A stretch of DNA of 52,371 nucleotides from Bacteroidota bacterium (lineage in GTDB: Bacteria; Bacteroidota; Bacteroidia; Flavobacteriales; Flavobacteriaceae): contig CANIFM010000002.1 of the NCBI GenBank assembly GCA_947466955.1, positions 1 to 52,371 on the forward strand, written 5' to 3'. The notes under the pieces are model-generated. The model was not told the origin of the DNA. It did no database searches and was given only the letters and a program-made list of their open reading frames with translations. The translations under genes and the position numbers were made by a program. Shown here one piece after another: positions 1,852-48,282 of the stretch. Numbering within the stretch: the stretch's first letter is position 1; the number at the start of each line of letters is the position of its first letter.

Positions 1852-1962
1852 GGGCGAGTCCCCTTCCCTTGAATTGGCATTCAAGGGAAGCGGTCAGGCT
1901 CTGCGCTTGAATCTCTGTTCCACTTTGTTCCACAGAGGATTTCCGCTGCGATCCTTCTCGCA
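1852..1962 (+). repeat. Cloverleaf-type dispersed repeat, copy A
   Basis: One of three related elements (others at 8103-8219 and 13731-13854). The ends GCGAG (1854-1858) and CTCGC (1957-1961) pair. An internal 11-bp perfect hairpin is CTTCCCTTGAA (1863-1873) with TTCAAGGGAAG (1880-1890). It is followed by the conserved core CGGTCAGGCT, a second hairpin CTCTGT/ACAGAG (1913-1918, 1932-1937) and a third GGAT/ATCC (1937-1940, 1951-1954) around TTCCGCTGCG. Stem sequences differ from the other copies but pairing is kept. It lies just beyond the yceI terminator, and its function is unknown. Confidence 0.8.
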
Positions 1963-2052
1963 AAAACACAGTGCTTAAATTCAACATATCATAAAAATTC
2001 ATAATTCGTTCAAAATTAAATCAGATTTTATTTTTTCAATTCAATTTATACT

Positions 2053-2060
2053 TACATTTG
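2053..2060 (+). promoter_or_regulatory. Candidate trp operon promoter -7 box
   Basis: TACATTTG matches TAnnTTTG and lies 16 bases before the trp leader ATG, so the leader RNA would begin around 2066-2070. No clear TTG -33 element is visible at the expected distance. The assignment therefore rests on the -7 match and its position. Confidence 0.5.
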
Positions 2061-2076
2061 TAATTCAAAATAAATT

Positions 2077-2133
2077 ATGAAAACATTTTTAAATAATACT
2101 TGTTGGTGGAACAGCTTACTTCATTCGTCGTGA
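2077..2133 (+). CDS. trpL: trp operon leader peptide
   Basis: An 18-codon open frame encodes MKTFLNNTCWWNSLLHSS. Tandem TGG Trp codons at 2104-2109 are the hallmark of a tryptophan attenuation leader. The stop codon (2131-2133) lies inside GTCGTGA (2127-2133), which is complementary to TCACGAC (2189-2195) in the terminator hairpin 56 bases downstream. Stalling at the Trp codons would leave GTCGTGA free to form an antiterminator. A ribosome reaching the stop codon would cover it and let the terminator form. It stands 99 bases ahead of trpE. The mechanism is inferred from sequence and has not been tested. Confidence 0.88.
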   Translation: MKTFLNNTCWWNSLLHSS

Positions 2134-2208
2134 ACAGTACACTTATAGGTATATTTTAAATCAAATAAATATCAAAAAGGGCTTGTCATCACGACAAGCC
2201 CTTTTTTT
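2114..2208 (+). promoter_or_regulatory. trp attenuator: antiterminator segment and terminator hairpin
   Basis: The terminator is GGGCTTGTC (2179-2187), loop ATCAC (2188-2192), GACAAGCCC (2193-2201) and a run of T residues (2202-2208). The competing antiterminator pairs leader segment GTCGTGA (2127-2133) with TCACGAC (2189-2195), which covers the loop and the start of the 3' arm. GCTT (2114-2117) can add pairing with AAGC (2196-2199) across a bulge. The two structures exclude each other, as in classical Trp attenuation. trpE starts at 2233. Confidence 0.85.
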
Positions 2209-2232: not shown

Positions 2233-3633
2233 ATGGAAATTTATAAATTCAAAACAACTTACAAGAAAATTCTCGCAGACACCATTACGCCCGTGAGTGT
2301 GTATTTAAAAATACGTGATAAATTTGCCAACAGTTTGCTGCTTGAAAGTAGCGATTATCACGCTAACGACAATAGTTTCTCGTATATCTGTTGCAATCCA
2401 ATTGCGTCAATAAAAATTGCAAACGAAACCATTTATAAAACATTTCCAGATGGAAGTACAAACACAATTGCAATTGATGAAAATTCAAATATTCCAAAAA
2501 TAATCGAGGAATTTACCAATCAATTTCAATCCGAAAACAACGATTTTAAATTCATCAATAACGGATTGTTTGGATATATTTCTTATGATGCCGTTCGCTA
2601 TTTTGAAAATATCGAAATCAATAAAAAAGACAGTGATTTGCAAATCCCTGATATTTATTATGCCATTTATCAGAATATCATCGCCATCAATCACTTCAAA
2701 AACGAAGCTTTTATTTTTTGCCATTCCATCACAGAAAACAATAATATTGAAACAATAGAAAACTTGCTTCAAAACAAAAGTTTTGCTTCGTATTCTTTTT
2801 CAAAAACAGGCGATAAAAAATCTAATTTAACCGATTCTGAATTTATTGATAATGTAAAATTAGCCAAGAAACACTGCTTTCGTGGAGATGTATTCCAACT
2901 CGTTTTATCACGTCGCTTTTCGCAAGGTTTTAAAGGCGACGAATTCAATGTTTATAGAGCTTTACGAAGCATCAATCCATCGCCCTATTTATTTTATTTT
3001 GATTATGGCGATTTCAAAATAATGGGTTCATCACCCGAAGCACAACTAATTGTAAAAGACAGAAAAGCAGAAATTCATCCCATTGCAGGAACTTTTAGAA
3101 GAACTGGAAATGACGAAAAAGATGCAGCACTTGCCAAAAATCTATCCGAAGATGAAAAAGAAAATGCAGAGCATATTATGTTGGTTGATTTAGCTCGAAA
3201 CGATTTAAGCAGAAACGGATACCAAGTGAAAGTCGAGAAATACAGAGAAGTTCAGTTTTTTTCTCACGTAATTCATTTGGTTTCAAAAGTCACAGGTTTA
3301 TTGCACGAAAAAGCAACAACAATGCAAGTCGTTGCCGACACATTTCCAGCAGGAACTTTATCAGGAGCGCCAAAACACAAGGCGATGCAACTTATCGAAA
3401 AATATGAAAAAACGAATCGGAATTTCTACGGTGGCGCCATCGGATTTATGGATTTTAATGGAAATTTTAATCACGCCATTATGATACGTACTTTTTTGAG
3501 TAAAAATCATAAATTGCACTATCAAGCGGGAGCAGGAATTGTATCAGATTCCATTGAAGAAAATGAAATGCAGGAAGTTTATAATAAATTGGCAGCATTG
3601 GATAAAGCATTGAAAATAGCGGAAACGATATAA
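2233..3633 (+). CDS. trpE: Anthranilate synthase component I
   Basis: The 466-residue large subunit converts chorismate to anthranilate using ammonia supplied by TrpG, the first committed step of tryptophan synthesis. The N-terminal region carries LLLESSD, the motif used for tryptophan feedback binding. The C-terminal chorismate-binding domain (about 200-460) shows GDVFQLVLSRRF, PSPYLFYFDYGDFKIMGSSPE, HPIAGTFRRTG, DLARNDLSRNG, FPAGTLSGAPKHKAM and YGGAIGFMDFNG. It is the first structural gene after the attenuator. The length is normal and no key motif is missing. Confidence 0.97.
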   Translation: MEIYKFKTTYKKILADTITPVSVYLKIRDKFANSLLLESSDYHANDNSFSYICCNPIASIKIANETIYKTFPDGSTNTIAIDENSNIPKIIEEFTNQFQSENNDFKFINNGLFGYISYDAVRYFENIEINKKDSDLQIPDIYYAIYQNIIAINHFKNEAFIFCHSITENNNIETIENLLQNKSFASYSFSKTGDKKSNLTDSEFIDNVKLAKKHCFRGDVFQLVLSRRFSQGFKGDEFNVYRALRSINPSPYLFYFDYGDFKIMGSSPEAQLIVKDRKAEIHPIAGTFRRTGNDEKDAALAKNLSEDEKENAEHIMLVDLARNDLSRNGYQVKVEKYREVQFFSHVIHLVSKVTGLLHEKATTMQVVADTFPAGTLSGAPKHKAMQLIEKYEKTNRNFYGGAIGFMDFNGNFNHAIMIRTFLSKNHKLHYQAGAGIVSDSIEENEMQEVYNKLAALDKALKIAETI

Positions 3634-3727: not shown

Positions 3728-4297
3728 ATGAAAAAAATAATAGTCATCGATAATTACGATAGTTTCACCTACAATTTGGTACACTGCTTAGAAGATTTAA
3801 ACTGCGAAGTAACCGTTTATAGAAACGACGAATTTGACATTGAAGAACTTCAAAAATTTGATAAAATCCTACTTTCACCAGGGCCAGGAATCCCGGATGA
3901 AGCGGGTTTACTCAAAGAAGTAATCAAAGCCTATTCGGCTACAAAAAGTATTCTAGGAGTTTGTTTAGGACAACAAGCCATCGCTGAAGTATTTGGCGGA
4001 AGCCTTATCAATCTTGAAAAAGTATATCACGGAGTAGCTTCAAATATTAAAATTCAAGTGCAAGACGAACCTTTATTTAAAGGTTTAGAATCTGAAATTG
4101 AAGTCGGGAGATACCATTCTTGGGTGGTTAATCCAACTGATATTCCTGAAGTTTTAGAAATCACATCATTAGATGAAAACGGGCAAATTATGTCATTGAG
4201 ACACCGGACTTTTGATGTTCGTGCCGTTCAATTTCATCCTGAAAGTATTTTGACACCGCACGGAAAAAAGATTTTAGAAAACTGGGTTGCACAATAA
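3728..4297 (+). CDS. trpG: Anthranilate synthase component II, glutamine amidotransferase
   Basis: A 189-residue class I glutamine amidotransferase that releases ammonia from glutamine for TrpE. It begins with IDNYDSFTYNLV, has the oxyanion-hole LSPGPGIP, the nucleophile Cys79 in GVCLGQQAIAEVFGG, and the remaining triad members His170 and Glu172 in VQFHPES. It is a stand-alone subunit, not fused to trpE or trpD. The gap from trpE is 94 bases, with no terminator seen. In some organisms the same subunit also serves p-aminobenzoate synthesis, but operon placement makes Trp the main role. Confidence 0.96.
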   Translation: MKKIIVIDNYDSFTYNLVHCLEDLNCEVTVYRNDEFDIEELQKFDKILLSPGPGIPDEAGLLKEVIKAYSATKSILGVCLGQQAIAEVFGGSLINLEKVYHGVASNIKIQVQDEPLFKGLESEIEVGRYHSWVVNPTDIPEVLEITSLDENGQIMSLRHRTFDVRAVQFHPESILTPHGKKILENWVAQ

Positions 4298-4337: not shown

Positions 4338-5330
4338 ATGAAACACATACTTAACCGACTTATTAATCACGAAGTACTTTCAAAATTGGAAGCCAAAGAA
4401 GTTTTGGTAAATATTTCCAACGGGAGTTATAATACAAGCCAAATTGCAAGTTTTCTGACCGTTTATATGATGCGAAATATCACCATTGAGGAATTGGCAG
4501 GATTTCGGGAAGCTTTATTGGAGTTATGTATTTCTGTTGATTTATCAAATTATAATACCATCGATTTGTGCGGAACTGGTGGCGATGGAAAAGACACATT
4601 TAATATTTCAACATTGGCTTCATTTGTAACTGCAGGAGCTGGAGTTAAGGTTGCAAAACACGGAAATTACGGCGTTTCCTCAATTTCAGGTTCAAGTAAT
4701 GTAATGGAAATTCTTGGTGTAAAATTCAGTAATGACAATGCTTATTTGGAAAAATGCATCGATCAAGCTGGAATTTGCATTCTTCACGCGCCACTATTTC
4801 ATCCAGCAATGAAAAATGTTGGCCCTATTCGTAAAGAATTAGCCGTAAAAACGTTCTTCAATATGCTTGGGCCAATGGTAAATCCTTCGTTTCCACAGAA
4901 TCAATTGGTGGGTGTTTTCAACCTTGAATTGGCAAGAATGTACAGTTATTTATATCAAAATACGACTACCAATTTTACAATTTTGCACAGTTTAGACGGT
5001 TATGACGAAATTTCGTTGACTGGAAATACCAAAACCATTACAAATGCAATGGAAGGAATGTTGAAACCCGAAGATTTTGGAGTTTCAATTTTAAAGCAAA
5101 ATGAAATTCAAGGCGGAACTACCATCGAAGAATCGGCTAAATTATTTATGAATATAATAGAAGGCAAAGGAACTGACGCACAGAACAATGTAGTTTGTGC
5201 CAATGCTGGAATGGCAATTGCAACCGTTAATTCACTCTCACCAATTCAGGGATTTGAAATTGCAAAAGAAAGTTTGTTGTCAGGAAAAGCACTTTTAGCA
5301 TTAAATAAATTGCAACAATTAAGCAAATAA
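4338..5330 (+). CDS. trpD: Anthranilate phosphoribosyltransferase
   Basis: The 330-residue enzyme attaches the phosphoribosyl group of PRPP to anthranilate. Diagnostic motifs are DLCGTGGDGKDTFNIST (PRPP binding), KVAKHGNYGVSSISGS, and HPAMKNVGPIRKELAVKTFFNMLGP in the anthranilate-binding region. Start ATG follows trpG by 40 bases. Length and motifs are normal. The gene ends 9 bases before trpC. Confidence 0.96.
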   Translation: MKHILNRLINHEVLSKLEAKEVLVNISNGSYNTSQIASFLTVYMMRNITIEELAGFREALLELCISVDLSNYNTIDLCGTGGDGKDTFNISTLASFVTAGAGVKVAKHGNYGVSSISGSSNVMEILGVKFSNDNAYLEKCIDQAGICILHAPLFHPAMKNVGPIRKELAVKTFFNMLGPMVNPSFPQNQLVGVFNLELARMYSYLYQNTTTNFTILHSLDGYDEISLTGNTKTITNAMEGMLKPEDFGVSILKQNEIQGGTTIEESAKLFMNIIEGKGTDAQNNVVCANAGMAIATVNSLSPIQGFEIAKESLLSGKALLALNKLQQLSK

Positions 5331-5339
5331 GAATCGATT

Positions 5340-6137
5340 ATGAATATTTTAGATAAAATAATTACAAGTAAGAAAAAAGAAGTGCTTCTCAAAAAATCAA
5401 TTATTCCAATAAATGAATTTGAGAAATCTATACTTTTTGAACGCAAAACCGTATCATTAAGCAACAATTTAATTCATAGTTCTACTGGAATTATTGCGGA
5501 ACACAAAAGACGTTCCCCATCAAAAGGAGAAATAAATTATGCGTTTTCTGTTGAGGAAGTTGTGCAAGGATATGAAAATGCAGGCGTTTGTGGAATTTCT
5601 GTATTAACAGATTCTACCTATTTTGGTGGTTCTTTAGACGATTTAATTTTTGCGAGAGCAACAACAAATCTTCCACTTTTGCGAAAAGAATTCATCGTTG
5701 ACGAATACCAAATCATAGAAGCCAAAGCGTATGGTTCAGATGTAATTTTGTTAATTGCAGCCGTTTTAACTGATAATGAAATAAAAATATTATCCGAATT
5801 AGCACAGTCTTTAGGAATGGAAGTGTTGCTTGAAGTTCACAATTTAGAGGAATTGCAAAAGTCAATTATGCCAAGTTTAAATATGATTGGTGTCAACAAT
5901 CGAAATCTAAAAACATTTGAAGTAGGATTGAACATTAGCAAAGAATTGGCTTCGGAAATTCCCACCGATTTTGTAAAAATTTCAGAAAGCGGAATTTATT
6001 CAATTGAAGCAATCAACGAACTAAAATCGTATGGTTACAAAGGATTTTTAATTGGTGAAAATTTTATGAAAACTGAAAATGCTGGGAAAGCAGCAAAAGA
6101 ATTTATTAGCCCTCTAACCCCCAAAGGGGGAAAGTAA
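5340..6137 (+). CDS. trpC: Indole-3-glycerol-phosphate synthase
   Basis: A 265-residue TIM-barrel enzyme that closes the indole ring. It shows the catalytic-lysine segment AEHKRRSPSKGEIN, SVLTDSTYFGGSLDD, LLRKEFIVDEYQI, MIGVNNRNLKTF and ISESGIYS, in the family order. It is a monofunctional TrpC, since trpF is separate. The last residues, SPLTPKGGK, do not belong to the fold. They are encoded by a 25-base micro-repeat (6108-6132) that recurs inverted at 41101-41125, so the gene appears to have picked up a new stop codon from an inserted repeat. Confidence 0.95.
   Translation: MNILDKIITSKKKEVLLKKSIIPINEFEKSILFERKTVSLSNNLIHSSTGIIAEHKRRSPSKGEINYAFSVEEVVQGYENAGVCGISVLTDSTYFGGSLDDLIFARATTNLPLLRKEFIVDEYQIIEAKAYGSDVILLIAAVLTDNEIKILSELAQSLGMEVLLEVHNLEELQKSIMPSLNMIGVNNRNLKTFEVGLNISKELASEIPTDFVKISESGIYSIEAINELKSYGYKGFLIGENFMKTENAGKAAKEFISPLTPKGGK
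6108..6132 (+). repeat. Micro-repeat forming the trpC 3' end
   Basis: This 25-base palindrome-containing sequence, with ACCCCCAAAGGGGG at its heart, is present in inverted orientation at 41101-41125 with 24 of 25 matching bases. Here it encodes the last residues of TrpC. Confidence 0.8.
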
Positions 6138-6232: not shown

Positions 6233-6922
6233 ATGGACAATCTAGACGTTTCGGCTCCCTCTCCTTTGGATTGCTTCGAATCTCGCAATGACAGGGCTGG
6301 GGTGAGGATTAAAATTTGCGGAATGAAATTCCCCAAAAACATCCTTGAAGTAGGCACGCTCCTACCCGACTTTATGGGTTTTATTTTCTGGGGAAAATCC
6401 AGTCGCTATTTTGAAGGTGAAATTCCAATGTTGCCAAAATCCATCAAAAAAGTGGGCGTATTTGTTGATGAATCATTTGAAATTGTAGTTTCTAAAATTG
6501 ATAAATACAAATTAGATTGTATACAATTGCACGGAAATGAATCGATTGAATTTTGTCAAAAGCTAAAAGAAATACCAATCGAAATCATCAAAGTTTTTTC
6601 TATAAAAGACAACTTTAATTTTGAAATTTTAAGAGAATTTGAAAATGTTTGCGATTATTTTCTATTTGATACAAAAGGAAAATTACCAGGTGGAAACGGT
6701 ACCACTTTCGATTGGAATCTGTTGAAAAAATACCCGTCAAATAAACCTTTTTTTCTAAGCGGGGGAATCGGAATTGAAGAAATAAATTTACTAAAAGATA
6801 TGAATTTGCCAATTTACGGCATCGATGTAAATAGCAAATTTGAAACAGAACCAGGATTAAAAAAAACAGAATTGTTAAAATCGTTTCAATCACAAATTGA
6901 AATATTAAATTTAAAAAAATGA
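6233..6922 (+). CDS. trpF: Phosphoribosylanthranilate isomerase
   Basis: The isomerase is recognisable from [13 protein letters not shown] onward: [52 protein letters not shown] and FFLSGGIG are TrpF motifs. TrpF normally begins almost directly with KICGM. Here about 25 extra residues precede it, encoded by two small repeats, one inserted in the other (6248-6307). Either the ATG at 6233 is used and the extension is tolerated, or translation starts at GTG 6302, directly before the conserved core. The gene overlaps trpB by four bases (ATGA), which implies translational coupling. Confidence 0.93.
6248..6307 (+). repeat. Nested micro-repeats inside the 5' end of trpF
   Basis: The outer piece reads GCTCCCTCTCCTTTGGA and resumes as GGGCTGGGGTGAGG. 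It is interrupted by ATTGCTTCGAATCTCGCAAT (6270-6289) plus GACA, a hairpin repeat that recurs before thrC (29136-29160) and in the long repeats near 17.7, 18.0 and 47.3 kb. The continuity of the outer element across the inner one suggests insertion. Confidence 0.65.
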
Positions 6923-8100
6923 GCTATCACGTTAATGAAAATGGATTTTATGGGAATTATGGCGGTGCTTTTATTCCCGAAATGTTATTCCCAAATGTTG
7001 AGGAATTGCGCCTTAATTATTTAAAAATTACAGCCGAACCTTCCTTCCAAATAGAATTTGAAGCTTTACTAAAAGACTTCGTTGGACGTCCAACCCCACT
7101 CTATTTTGCGGAGCGTTTGTCTAAAGAATACAACACGAAAATCTACCTAAAAAGAGAAGATTTATGTCATACTGGCGCGCATAAAATCAACAATACTATT
7201 GGGCAAATTTTGGTAGCAAAACGACTTGGAAAAACCCGAATTATTGCGGAAACTGGCGCTGGTCAACACGGCGTTGCAACCGCAACCGTTTGTGCGTTGA
7301 TGGGTTTGGAATGCATCGTTTATATGGGTGAAATCGACATCAAACGGCAAGCGCCAAACGTGGCAAGAATGAAAATGTTGGGTGCCGAAGTTCGTCCCGC
7401 AACTTCGGGTTCAAAAACCTTGAAAGATGCCACAAATGAAGCCATTCGCGACTGGATTAATAACCCCGAAGACACCTATTATATCATCGGTTCCGTGGTG
7501 GGGCCGCACCCGTATCCAGATATGGTGGCGCGTTTTCAAGCCGTTATTTCAAAGGAAATTAAAATACAATTATTCGAGAAAGAAGGGCGTGAAAACCCCG
7601 ATTATGTCATCGCTTGTGTTGGTGGCGGAAGCAACGCTGCTGGAACGTATTACCACTTTTTAGACGAAAATGACGTGAAAATTATCGCAGTTGAAGCGGC
7701 TGGAAAAGGCATCCATTCGGGTGAAAGTGCCGCAACTTCTGCATTGGGTAAAATTGGCGTTATTCACGGCAGTAAAACCCTTTTGATGCAAACTGACGAT
7801 GGTCAAATTACCGAGCCGTATTCCATTTCTGCAGGATTGGATTACCCCGGTGTAGGCCCTATGCACGCTCATTTATACGAAACAAAACGGGCTCAATTTA
7901 TCTCAATTACCGATGAAGATGCTATGAATTGGGGCATCAAATTATCCCAAACCGAAGGCATAATTCCAGCGATTGAAACCGCCCACGCCTTCGCAATTTT
8001 GGACGAAATGAAGTTCAAACCCACCGATATTTTGGTCATCAATTTATCGGGGCGTGGCGACAAAGATTTGAACACTTATATCGATTATTTCAAACTTTAA
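6919..8100 (+). CDS. trpB: Tryptophan synthase beta chain
   Basis: The 393-residue PLP enzyme condenses indole with serine. The PLP lysine is Lys89 in [35 protein letters not shown] (phosphate-binding loop), [11 protein letters not shown] and [14 protein letters not shown] are all present. The start codon overlaps the trpF stop (ATGA). It is visibly less AT-rich in its codon choice than its neighbours (many GGC, GCG and ACC codons), which may reflect expression level or a different history. A structured repeat begins two bases after its stop codon. Confidence 0.97.
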
Positions 8101-8102
8101 TT

Positions 8103-8219
8103 GGGCGTTACCGCAAGTCCTGAAAAAAAATTCAGGACTTGCGGTCGGGCAGTCCGCTGTATCCACAATATTGCTTCGTGCCGAGCAATAATGCGGGATG
8201 CCGCTTCCATCCCTAACGC
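8103..8219 (+). repeat. Cloverleaf-type dispersed repeat, copy B, inside the trp operon
   Basis: The ends GCGTTA (8105-8110) and TAACGC (8214-8219) pair. Hairpin 1 is a perfect 14-bp stem, CCGCAAGTCCTGAA (8111-8124) with TTCAGGACTTGCGG (8131-8144). The conserved core GGTCGGGC follows. Hairpin 2 is TATTGCT (8169-8175) with AGCAATA (8184-8190). Hairpin 3 is GGGAT/ATCCC around GCCGCTTCC. It starts two bases after the trpB stop and ends before trpA, so it must be transcribed within the trp mRNA. It keeps the trpA frame open and creates a false upstream extension of that gene. Confidence 0.85.
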
Positions 8220-8244
8220 ACCTCCTAACAACAATACAACTATT

Positions 8245-9009
8245 ATGAAAAATAGAATTTCAAACACATTATTAGAAAATAAAAAATTAATTTCAATTTA
8301 CTTTTCTGCTGGCTATCCTAATCTAAATGACACGGTTCAAATCATACAAGATTTAGAAAAAAGTGGCGTAGATATGATTGAAATTGGATTACCATTTAGT
8401 GATCCATTAGCCGACGGACCAACCATTCAAGAGAGTTCTACACTTGCAATTCAAAATGGAATGACAACCCAATTATTGTTTAGCCAATTGAAAAACATCA
8501 GAGAAACAGTGTCAATTCCGTTATTAATTATGGGATATTTCAATCCGATTTTACAATATGGAGTGGAAAAATTCTGTGAAAAATGTGCAGAAATTGGAAT
8601 TGACGGTCTTATAATTCCTGATTTACCCGTTGCCATTTACGATGAGAATTATAAAGCAATCTTTGAAAAAAACGGGATTTTTAATGTGTTTTTAATTACG
8701 CCGCAAACTTCAGAAAGTAGAATACGCTACATCGACAGCGTTTCAAATGGGTTTATTTATATGGTGAGTTCTGCGAATGTAACGGGTTCACAGTCAGATT
8801 TCGGAACAACTCAAGAATCTTATTTTCAAAGAATTGACGCAATGAATCTCAAAAACCCGCAAATTGTAGGATTTGGAATTAGTTCAAAAACAACTTTCAA
8901 TCAAGCGACAAAATATGCTAAAGGTGCGATTATTGGAAGTGCTTTTATAAAACATTTAACTGAAAACGGAACGCAATCCATTCCTGAATTTGTGAATCAG
9001 TTCAAGTAA
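8245..9009 (+). CDS. trpA: Tryptophan synthase alpha chain
   Basis: The 254-residue TIM-barrel subunit cleaves indole-3-glycerol phosphate and passes indole to TrpB. The catalytic Glu and Asp are in IEIGLPFSDPLADGP; MGYFNPILQYG, GLIIPDLP and GFGISSK are also present. The ATG at 8245 (MKNRISNTLLENKKL) is chosen because it fits the family length. The open frame continues upstream to 8101 only because repeat copy B has no stop in this frame. Last gene of the operon. Confidence 0.96.
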   Translation: MKNRISNTLLENKKLISIYFSAGYPNLNDTVQIIQDLEKSGVDMIEIGLPFSDPLADGPTIQESSTLAIQNGMTTQLLFSQLKNIRETVSIPLLIMGYFNPILQYGVEKFCEKCAEIGIDGLIIPDLPVAIYDENYKAIFEKNGIFNVFLITPQTSESRIRYIDSVSNGFIYMVSSANVTGSQSDFGTTQESYFQRIDAMNLKNPQIVGFGISSKTTFNQATKYAKGAIIGSAFIKHLTENGTQSIPEFVNQFK

Positions 9010-13730: not shown

Positions 13731-13854
13731 GGGTGCGCCCTCGTTTAGAACGATTTTAGTTACTACGCCATCTGTACTAAACGAGGTCGGGCTATTCGCT
13801 GCAATCTTTGCTGCACTTCGTTCCGCAAAGGATTTCCGCTGCTATCCCTCGCAC
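13731..13854 (+). repeat. Cloverleaf-type dispersed repeat, copy C
   Basis: The ends GTGCG (13733-13737) and CGCAC (13850-13854) pair. Hairpin 1 is CCTCGTTTAG (13739-13748) with CTAAACGAGG (13777-13786) and a 28-base loop. The conserved core GGTCGGGCTATTCGCTGCAAT follows in part. Hairpin 2 is CTTTGC (13806-13811) with GCAAAG (13825-13830). Hairpin 3 is GGAT/ATCC around TTCCGCTGCT. As with copies A and B it lies directly downstream of a gene and in the same direction. Confidence 0.85.
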
Positions 13855-13937
13855 GAAACCCTTCGATTTAAGAATTATGATTTATAGATTTTAGATTTTA
13901 GAATAACCGAATACACCTTTTCAAATAAAAAGTCATT

Positions 13938-30460: not shown

Positions 30461-30879
30461 AATGTGGAAATTTCATAAATACGAAAATTAAAACCAATAT
30501 TTTTTTTACTCTTTGTTGCCAATTCCAGCTTTCCACTTCAAGATTTTTCCATAAAACGTTTTTTTCTAAGGCAAAAAAGGAGCTTCTTTGGTCGCTCTTT
30601 TTTGCCAATAAAAAATACGTTTTCTCAAAAAAATGCTTTCCGTTTCAATCTGGGGCACAATTCCGAGACAACAGAAAATTAGATTTTAAAAGGAATTTCA
30701 GAGGATTTAAACCTAAAATCCGGAATCTAAAAACTACTTTTCCATTGTCAATATCATTCTTAATAACTTTGGATTTAAAATATTTTAAACCAAATCGAAT
30801 TTCACTATATTAGCACACTCGAGGACTGAGCGAAATGCAAAGACCGAACAGAACGCAGATAAATTCAGTAAACTTTATA
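30461..30879 (+). other. Intergenic region with degenerate hairpin repeat
   Basis: No gene is seen. Positions about 30505-30670 hold repeat-like sequence: CCAATTCCAGCTTTCC, then GGCAAAAAAGGAGC (30570-30583) facing GCTCTTTTTTGCC (30594-30606), an imperfect long hairpin, then AAAACG...CGTTTT arms and ATGCTTTCCGTTTCAATC. It resembles a decayed member of the structured repeat families in this window. The last 100 bases before parE are AT-rich and should hold its promoter, but no clear consensus was found. Confidence 0.5.
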
Positions 30880-48019: not shown

Positions 48020-48222
48020 TCGAGGTTAGCATGAATGGTGGCAGCGGAAATCTTCTGTGGAACAATCCATTTTATAACGTTTGATTTTAATCTAATGGAA
48101 TATAAGTATCGCAGCTTTGCATAAGTTATTATGAAAATCTAAACGTGAATTAGTAGCCCTGACAGCAGCGGCATCCTGTTGTGGCGGTGTTCGCCACAAG
48201 AGATACAGCGAATGGCAGGAAG
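48020..48222 (-). repeat. Degenerate structured repeats on the minus strand
   Basis: Read on the minus strand, 48025-48056 gives a fragment like the 3' half of cloverleaf copy A (ACAG, then GATTTCCGCTGCCACC). Positions 48155-48222 give a fuller type-2 element: CTTCCTGCCATTCGCTGTATC, a perfect 8-bp hairpin TTGTGGCG/CGCCACAA (plus-strand 48179-48186, 48192-48199), then AGGATGCCGCTGCTGTCAGG. The second shares its ends with 36691-36754. Confidence 0.55.
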
Positions 48223-48282
48223 AATAGTGAAAGAAAAATAAAACGTGTGCTTCAAGAAAAAAAACAAGCTAATAAATAAAAA

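Follow-up and report, generated by a model that had tools for sequence, protein, structure and literature searches.

A leader strand complementary to the terminator loop as the probable antiterminator of a Bacteroid-trp attenuator in Flavobacteriaceae

How does the leader of a flavobacterial tryptophan operon decide between ending transcription and admitting RNA polymerase to the structural genes? The question is raised by a locus on contig CANIFM010000002.1 (assembly GCA_947466955.1, Flavobacteriaceae), of which positions 1-52,371 were analysed; this whole stretch of 52,371 nt is referred to here as the window. The leader matches the Rfam family Bacteroid-trp (RF01692) over model positions 1-131 of 131, scoring 67.9 bits against a cut-off of 49 (cmscan; E-value within the window 2e-6), and is the sole copy detected in its own genome. 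In 2010 Bacteroid-trp was put forward, on in silico grounds, as a likely cis-regulatory RNA (Weinberg et al. 2010, PMC2864571), and the copy upstream of trp in F. psychrophilum has already been read as a Trp attenuator (PMC6414381). A first-pass annotation of the window proposed classical Trp attenuation in a Bacteroidota genome. By sequence comparison this appears sound, since the Trp codons, the antiterminator strand, the terminator and the downstream trp operon are all conserved, but it is not a new finding: both the element and the attenuator reading are already known and catalogued as RF01692. What appears to be new is comparative evidence on how the "on" state works, which points to a leader strand that seizes the terminator loop.

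The element is widespread, RF01692 having been matched in 210 of 301 sampled genomes of Flavobacteriaceae. Strong TrpE matches were found in 16 of 22 Rfam-negative genomes examined, and 14 of these 16 carry a WW leader and a hairpin before TrpE which the model missed. In the window the element sits 5' of tryptophan biosynthesis genes, the complete trpEGDCFBA operon following directly after the terminator and trpE beginning 24 nt past the U tract (Table 1). The TIGR00564 match of TrpE falls below the curated cut-off, as it does for other flavobacterial TrpE proteins. As called, the trpF and trpA ORFs carry odd, non-homologous N-terminal extensions (6233-6300 and 8101-8244), and these stretches before the two starts may be intergenic repeat-like sequence. 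One of the four matches to Flavo-1 RNA in the window sits between the upstream gene and the trp leader. The element is not a product of chance, given the full-length RF01692 match, a z-score of -6.0 for the 145-nt leader fold, a TrpE-like protein downstream in 149 of the 149 family loci retrieved, and a conserved, covarying complementarity. That an ordinary terminator and a spurious small ORF should merely happen to precede trpE, without regulatory role, is hardly credible when Trp codons, spacing, terminator and operon are conserved in roughly 200 genomes.

Table 1. Coordinates of the trp leader, its RNA elements, the downstream operon and Flavo-1 matches in the window
Feature	Position	Strand	Basis
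Probable Bacteroidota -7 promoter element TACATTTG (consensus TAnnTTTG)	2053-2060	+	sequence, relatives
Leader peptide ORF MKTFLNNTCWWNSLLHSS, followed by stop	2077-2133	+	translation; RF01692 match spans 2057-2187
Leader hairpin (segments 1:2), core arms 2096-2108 / 2140-2152	2088-2160	+	MFE fold, Rfam consensus, shuffles
Control codons TGT TGG TGG (Cys Trp Trp)	2101-2109	+	comparison with relatives
Antiterminator strand GUCGUGA, conserved core UCGUGA (2128-2133)	2127-2133	+	spacing, frame independence, covariation
Intrinsic terminator (14-bp stem)	2174-2208	+	fold -20.7 kcal/mol; found in relatives
Terminator 5' arm AAAAAGGGCTTGTC	2174-2187	+	
Terminator loop ATCAC	2188-2192	+	
Antiterminator target UCACGAC (terminator loop and first three 3'-arm bases)	2189-2195	+	complementarity, covariation
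Terminator 3' arm GACAAGCCCTTTTT	2193-2206	+	
U tract (seven U)	2202-2208	+	
trpE, anthranilate synthase component I, first controlled gene	2233-3633	+	TIGR00564, E 2e-134
trpG	3728-4297	+	NCBIfam
trpD	4338-5330	+	NCBIfam
trpC	5340-6137	+	NCBIfam
trpF	6233-6922	+	NCBIfam
trpB	6919-8100	+	NCBIfam
trpA (start probably 8245)	8245-9009	+	NCBIfam
Flavo-1 RNA (RF01705)	1888-1966	-	
Flavo-1 RNA (RF01705)	13781-13857	-	
Flavo-1 RNA (RF01705)	30518-30660	-	
Flavo-1 RNA (RF01705)	48151-48226	+	

The leader contains a short ORF with at least two consecutive Trp codons (TGG TGG at 2104-2109) and a TGA stop at 2131-2133. The first-pass annotation had placed leader, GTCGTGA and terminator correctly and had noted the tandem Trp codons, omitting that relatives carry three. 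Among the family loci parsed with their terminator, Trp runs occur in all 143 leaders; 140 have three consecutive Trp codons and three have two, the window species being one of these three. The first codon of its run is TGT (Cys), where all 15 other genus members read have TGG. By this comparison the window species has apparently lost one Trp codon kept by its genus mates, a possible natural retuning of sensitivity. Codon number affects attenuator sensitivity according to modelling (PMC1183508), and the missing third Trp codon provides a natural comparison for how it does so. In one further leader (L236), CWW has arisen independently of the window species. Of 140 relatives examined, only 4 lack the TAnnTTTG element ahead of the leader ATG, and in the window transcription is predicted to start at about 2065-2067. 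In about 23 relatives (L049, L113, L149 and others) the -7 box ends some 5 nt before the leader ATG, which suggests that their leader peptide is translated from a leaderless transcript.

An intrinsic terminator lies between the leader and the first gene, and GTCGTGA near the end of the leader is the exact reverse complement of TCACGAC, which comprises four loop bases and the three bases that begin the 3' arm; the duplex is worth -9.1 kcal/mol. The annotated complementarity to loop and 3' arm is thus a perfect match, and in the comparison across Flavobacteriaceae, a check that had been suggested as an alignment, it is kept among relatives together with the Trp codons. UCGUGA is present in 135 of the 143 parsed leaders. 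In 134 of these 135 its distance from the first Trp codon is +26 to +28 nt, the sole exception being the window locus, where the distance is +27 when counted from the mutated TGT. Its reading frame is free to vary, being 0, +1 and +2 in 100, 30 and 5 loci, respectively (the second yields endings such as FVN-stop). Measured between first bases, the leader stop lies at most 8 nt downstream and at most 11 nt upstream of UCGUGA, and in about half of the relatives the stop is located elsewhere than in the strand. GTCGTGA does contain the leader stop, as annotated, but this is incidental, the motif standing in another frame in 35 of the 135 relatives with the exact motif. Since UCGUGA is fixed from the Trp codons while frame and stop vary, conservation applies to the RNA strand and neither to the peptide nor to the stop. 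Nearly all of 140 family loci retain the core pairing UCGUGA/UCACGA, and in almost every locus the stop is so placed that a terminating ribosome would cover the strand. These comparative data supply what the Rfam entry lacks, namely a testable antiterminator and a frame-independent spacing rule of 27 +/- 1 nt.

The comparison covered about 200 related leaders, with pairings tested sequence by sequence and not from an alignment. RNAalifold on a MAFFT alignment recovered the terminator only, since the spacer aligns poorly and alternative pairings have no place in a nested fold. The strongest evidence comes from loci in which strand and target have changed jointly. Outside the common motif, the strand GUCGCAA of L103 faces the target UUGCGAC. 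Another family of the order pairs GUUGGUUC with GAACCGAC and, in L210, GUUGAUUC with GAAUCGAC; another order of the class pairs GUCGUAAG with CUUACGGC and ACCGUGAG with CUUACGGU; Rfam-negative genomes pair UCGCGA with UCGCGA and GCGAG with CUCGC. In two further Rfam-negative loci (L234 and L235, one from a genus mate) the terminators are of unrelated sequence, and the leader strand stays complementary to the new terminator loop (UUUGGAA/UUCCAAG and GGAUUCAG/CUGAAUCC). Among 39 distinct strand/target combinations, in a set that included 18 deep loci picked for a readable register, 229 of 234 cells are paired; re-dealing the partners gives 198.8 on average and at most 217, and none of 5000 shuffles reaches 229. 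Because those 18 loci were chosen for a clear register, fairer tests are those in which the register is not chosen, where the best duplex with the own terminator scores 381 versus 296 +/- 12.5 for permuted partners (0/5000), and the same test within the Rfam-negative set, which gives 215 versus 188 +/- 8 (8/5000). The shuffles ignore relatedness, though the 39-combination test and the test that gave 381 used distinct sequences only. Column-wise partner shuffles within the family are uninformative at most positions, the motif being nearly invariant, and most of the covariation therefore stems from other families. Taken together, the comparison across relatives supports GUCGUGA as the likely antiterminator.

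The geometry could instead follow that of E. coli, the leader pairing with the terminator 5' arm and the loop complementarity being secondary. The fold of the stalled state does include ACAG (2134-2137) paired with UUGU (2183-2186) of the 5' arm, one related clade (L174 and relatives) pairs UCAAAGUCUU with AAGACUUUGA in the 5' arm, and the pheA leader of the same genome apparently pairs with its 5' arm as well. In most family loci, however, the conserved pairing takes in the loop and two to three bases of the 3' arm, the covariation tracks the loop, and the ACAG extension is poorly conserved. An antiterminator made with the terminator 5' arm (2:3) was not found in the window, where only the four non-conserved extra pairs reach that arm, and such a geometry is considered unlikely here. 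Capture of the loop by GUCGUGA remains the preferred reading.

The timing of this capture was considered by folding partial transcripts of 140 loci with the ribosome footprint kept single-stranded. The footprint was assumed to be E. coli-like, reaching 15 nt upstream and 12 nt downstream of the first A-site base, and the model is one of equilibrium folding, pseudoknots and polymerase kinetics lying outside it. With a ribosome stalled at the first Trp codon and GAC plus 0-3 nt exposed, the antiterminator has a probability above 0.5 in 126-139 of the 140 loci. With the ribosome at the stop and GAC plus 1-3 nt exposed, the terminator dominates in 106-134 of 140; as the mask itself excludes the antiterminator, this state tests only whether the ribosome is so placed as to cover the strand. 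In ribosome-free RNA at these exposures, the terminator pairing is the dominant one in 98-130 of 140 loci. Once GAC plus 6 nt have emerged the terminator prevails in 126-140 of 140 whatever the state, and at full length it is more stable than the antiterminator in every state. Since the terminator is in all cases the more stable outcome, we infer that the switch would have to be kinetic, timed to the moment at which the loop and the start of the 3' arm exit the polymerase. This is also the point at which a terminator hairpin normally must nucleate. With the antiterminator in place, most of the terminator stem could still form, giving a pseudoknot. In the window species the antiterminator already reaches 0.94 in the untranslated RNA at exposure 2195-2196, and the model therefore predicts leaky basal expression, which may exceed that of relatives.

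The same stability argument lends something to the view that no dedicated antiterminator exists, a stalled ribosome merely delaying or melting structure while the loop pairing is a kissing contact that permits termination. GUCGUGA directly blocks only 3 of 14 terminator pairs, and in the end the terminator is invariably the more stable of the two. Against this, a pairing whose distance from the Trp codons is constant whatever the frame, and which covaries across families, needs a function, and masked folding gives the loop pairing the decision window; the view is judged improbable. The first-pass annotation had allowed only two alternative pairings. This does not hold, since a third competing structure exists, the conserved leader hairpin, which is the structure modelled by Rfam. 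It is a protector hairpin (1:2) involving the control codons. In an ensemble test over 140 relatives its expected pairs number 13.5, against 7.5 when the downstream arm is shuffled; a test of the best ungapped helix is weak, at 12.5 against 11.6. Folding of 140 relatives leaves the antiterminator strand about 80% paired within the leader when untranslated, suggesting that the leader hairpin keeps GUCGUGA buried absent a ribosome.

The reading favoured here, with a probability of about 0.9, is that the element is a ribosome-mediated transcription attenuator of the trp operon belonging to the Bacteroid-trp family. The parts, their conservation, their covariation and the geometry are observed; the tRNA-Trp response and the kinetic decision are what we infer. 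When tryptophan is sufficient, the ribosome would reach the leader stop and its footprint would cover GUCGUGA, so that the terminator folds and transcription ends at about 2202-2208. When tryptophan is scarce, the ribosome would stall at the two Trp codons, melting the 5' arm of the leader hairpin and freeing GUCGUGA, which could then pair with UCACGAC as the terminator loop and first 3'-arm bases emerge. ACAG might assist by its pairing with UUGU of the 5' arm. The GUCGUGA/UCACGAC duplex, which excludes the terminator and is itself excluded by a ribosome on the leader stop, would block the loop-closing pairs from which the terminator would zip, and RNA polymerase would enter trpE. In RNA that carries no ribosome, GUCGUGA would be hidden by the leader hairpin and termination favoured.

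Not all related leaders keep this arrangement. In L174, L208, L209, L212, L213, L216, L217 and L219-L222 the strand UCAAAGUCUU, at +20 nt, pairs with the 5' arm, indicating that the geometry switched within the element family. A bolder reading is that Bacteroidota trp attenuators have a distinct antitermination geometry, in which a strand of 6-8 bp captures the apical loop and a few bases to each side of it within a kinetic window of about 3-4 nt, that this has been reinvented with the unrelated loops UCAC, GAAC, AAUC, UUCC and UCGC, and that one related clade is 5'-arm-switched; we hold this generalisation to be slightly better than an even bet. Elsewhere in the same genome, the first 120 bases of the reverse complement of another contig (C209; locus L176) hold a Phe/Tyr-rich ORF ending in FNFTPSYYFFFSRSKDCAVVI before its stop, and a terminator, upstream of pheA; C209 ends before the start codon of this ORF is reached. 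Here the leader stretch AGGAUUGU and the stretch ACAAUCCU in the 5' arm of the terminator are complementary, and the pheA leader is probably a Phe attenuator of ordinary 5'-arm geometry. A search of the same assembly, which is 88% complete, gave no match for hisG. A second genomic copy of TCACGACAAGC (L178) was set aside, since its surroundings lack a trp-like leader and terminator and chance alone predicts about one copy.

Bacteroidota differ from E. coli in both transcription and translation initiation. The leader-peptide attenuator is conserved across Flavobacteriaceae and is found in other Bacteroidota families, and such conservation implies that in this phylum the ribosome stays close enough to RNA polymerase near the 5' end. 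The trp leader may thus serve as a simple reporter for ribosome-polymerase closeness in Bacteroidota.

Several parallels can be drawn with known systems. In F. psychrophilum, a fish pathogen of the same bacterial family, a transcriptome study gives clues, in the accessible part of its account, for leader-peptide attenuation before amino-acid operons, with structured 5' elements at pheA and hisG; the proposed mechanism is that of the window and the operons are others, and an antiterminator geometry was not found in that part (PMC9723704). The open literature searched, without the 2010 supplement, yielded no experimental study of a Bacteroid-trp leader and no description of its antiterminator, and the claim made here is limited to the Rfam model being without an antiterminator pairing. 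With RF01692 the window copy shares the full-length match, the tandem-Trp leader peptide, the leader hairpin and the position before trpE; however, the Rfam consensus holds the leader hairpin only and ends at the terminator 5' arm, and the window copy has two Trp codons where RF01692 relatives have three. The E. coli trp attenuator (regions I-IV) has the same leader peptide with adjacent Trp codons, protector hairpin, antiterminator, U-tract terminator and ribosome logic, its II:III and III:IV pairings being mutually exclusive (PMC1183508). The two differ in the target of the antiterminator: in E. coli region II pairs with region III, which is the terminator 5' arm, whereas in the window the strand pairs with the loop and the beginning of the 3' arm. 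In function the window element resembles the E. coli attenuator, but it is not classed under that structure, and no homology between the two is implied.
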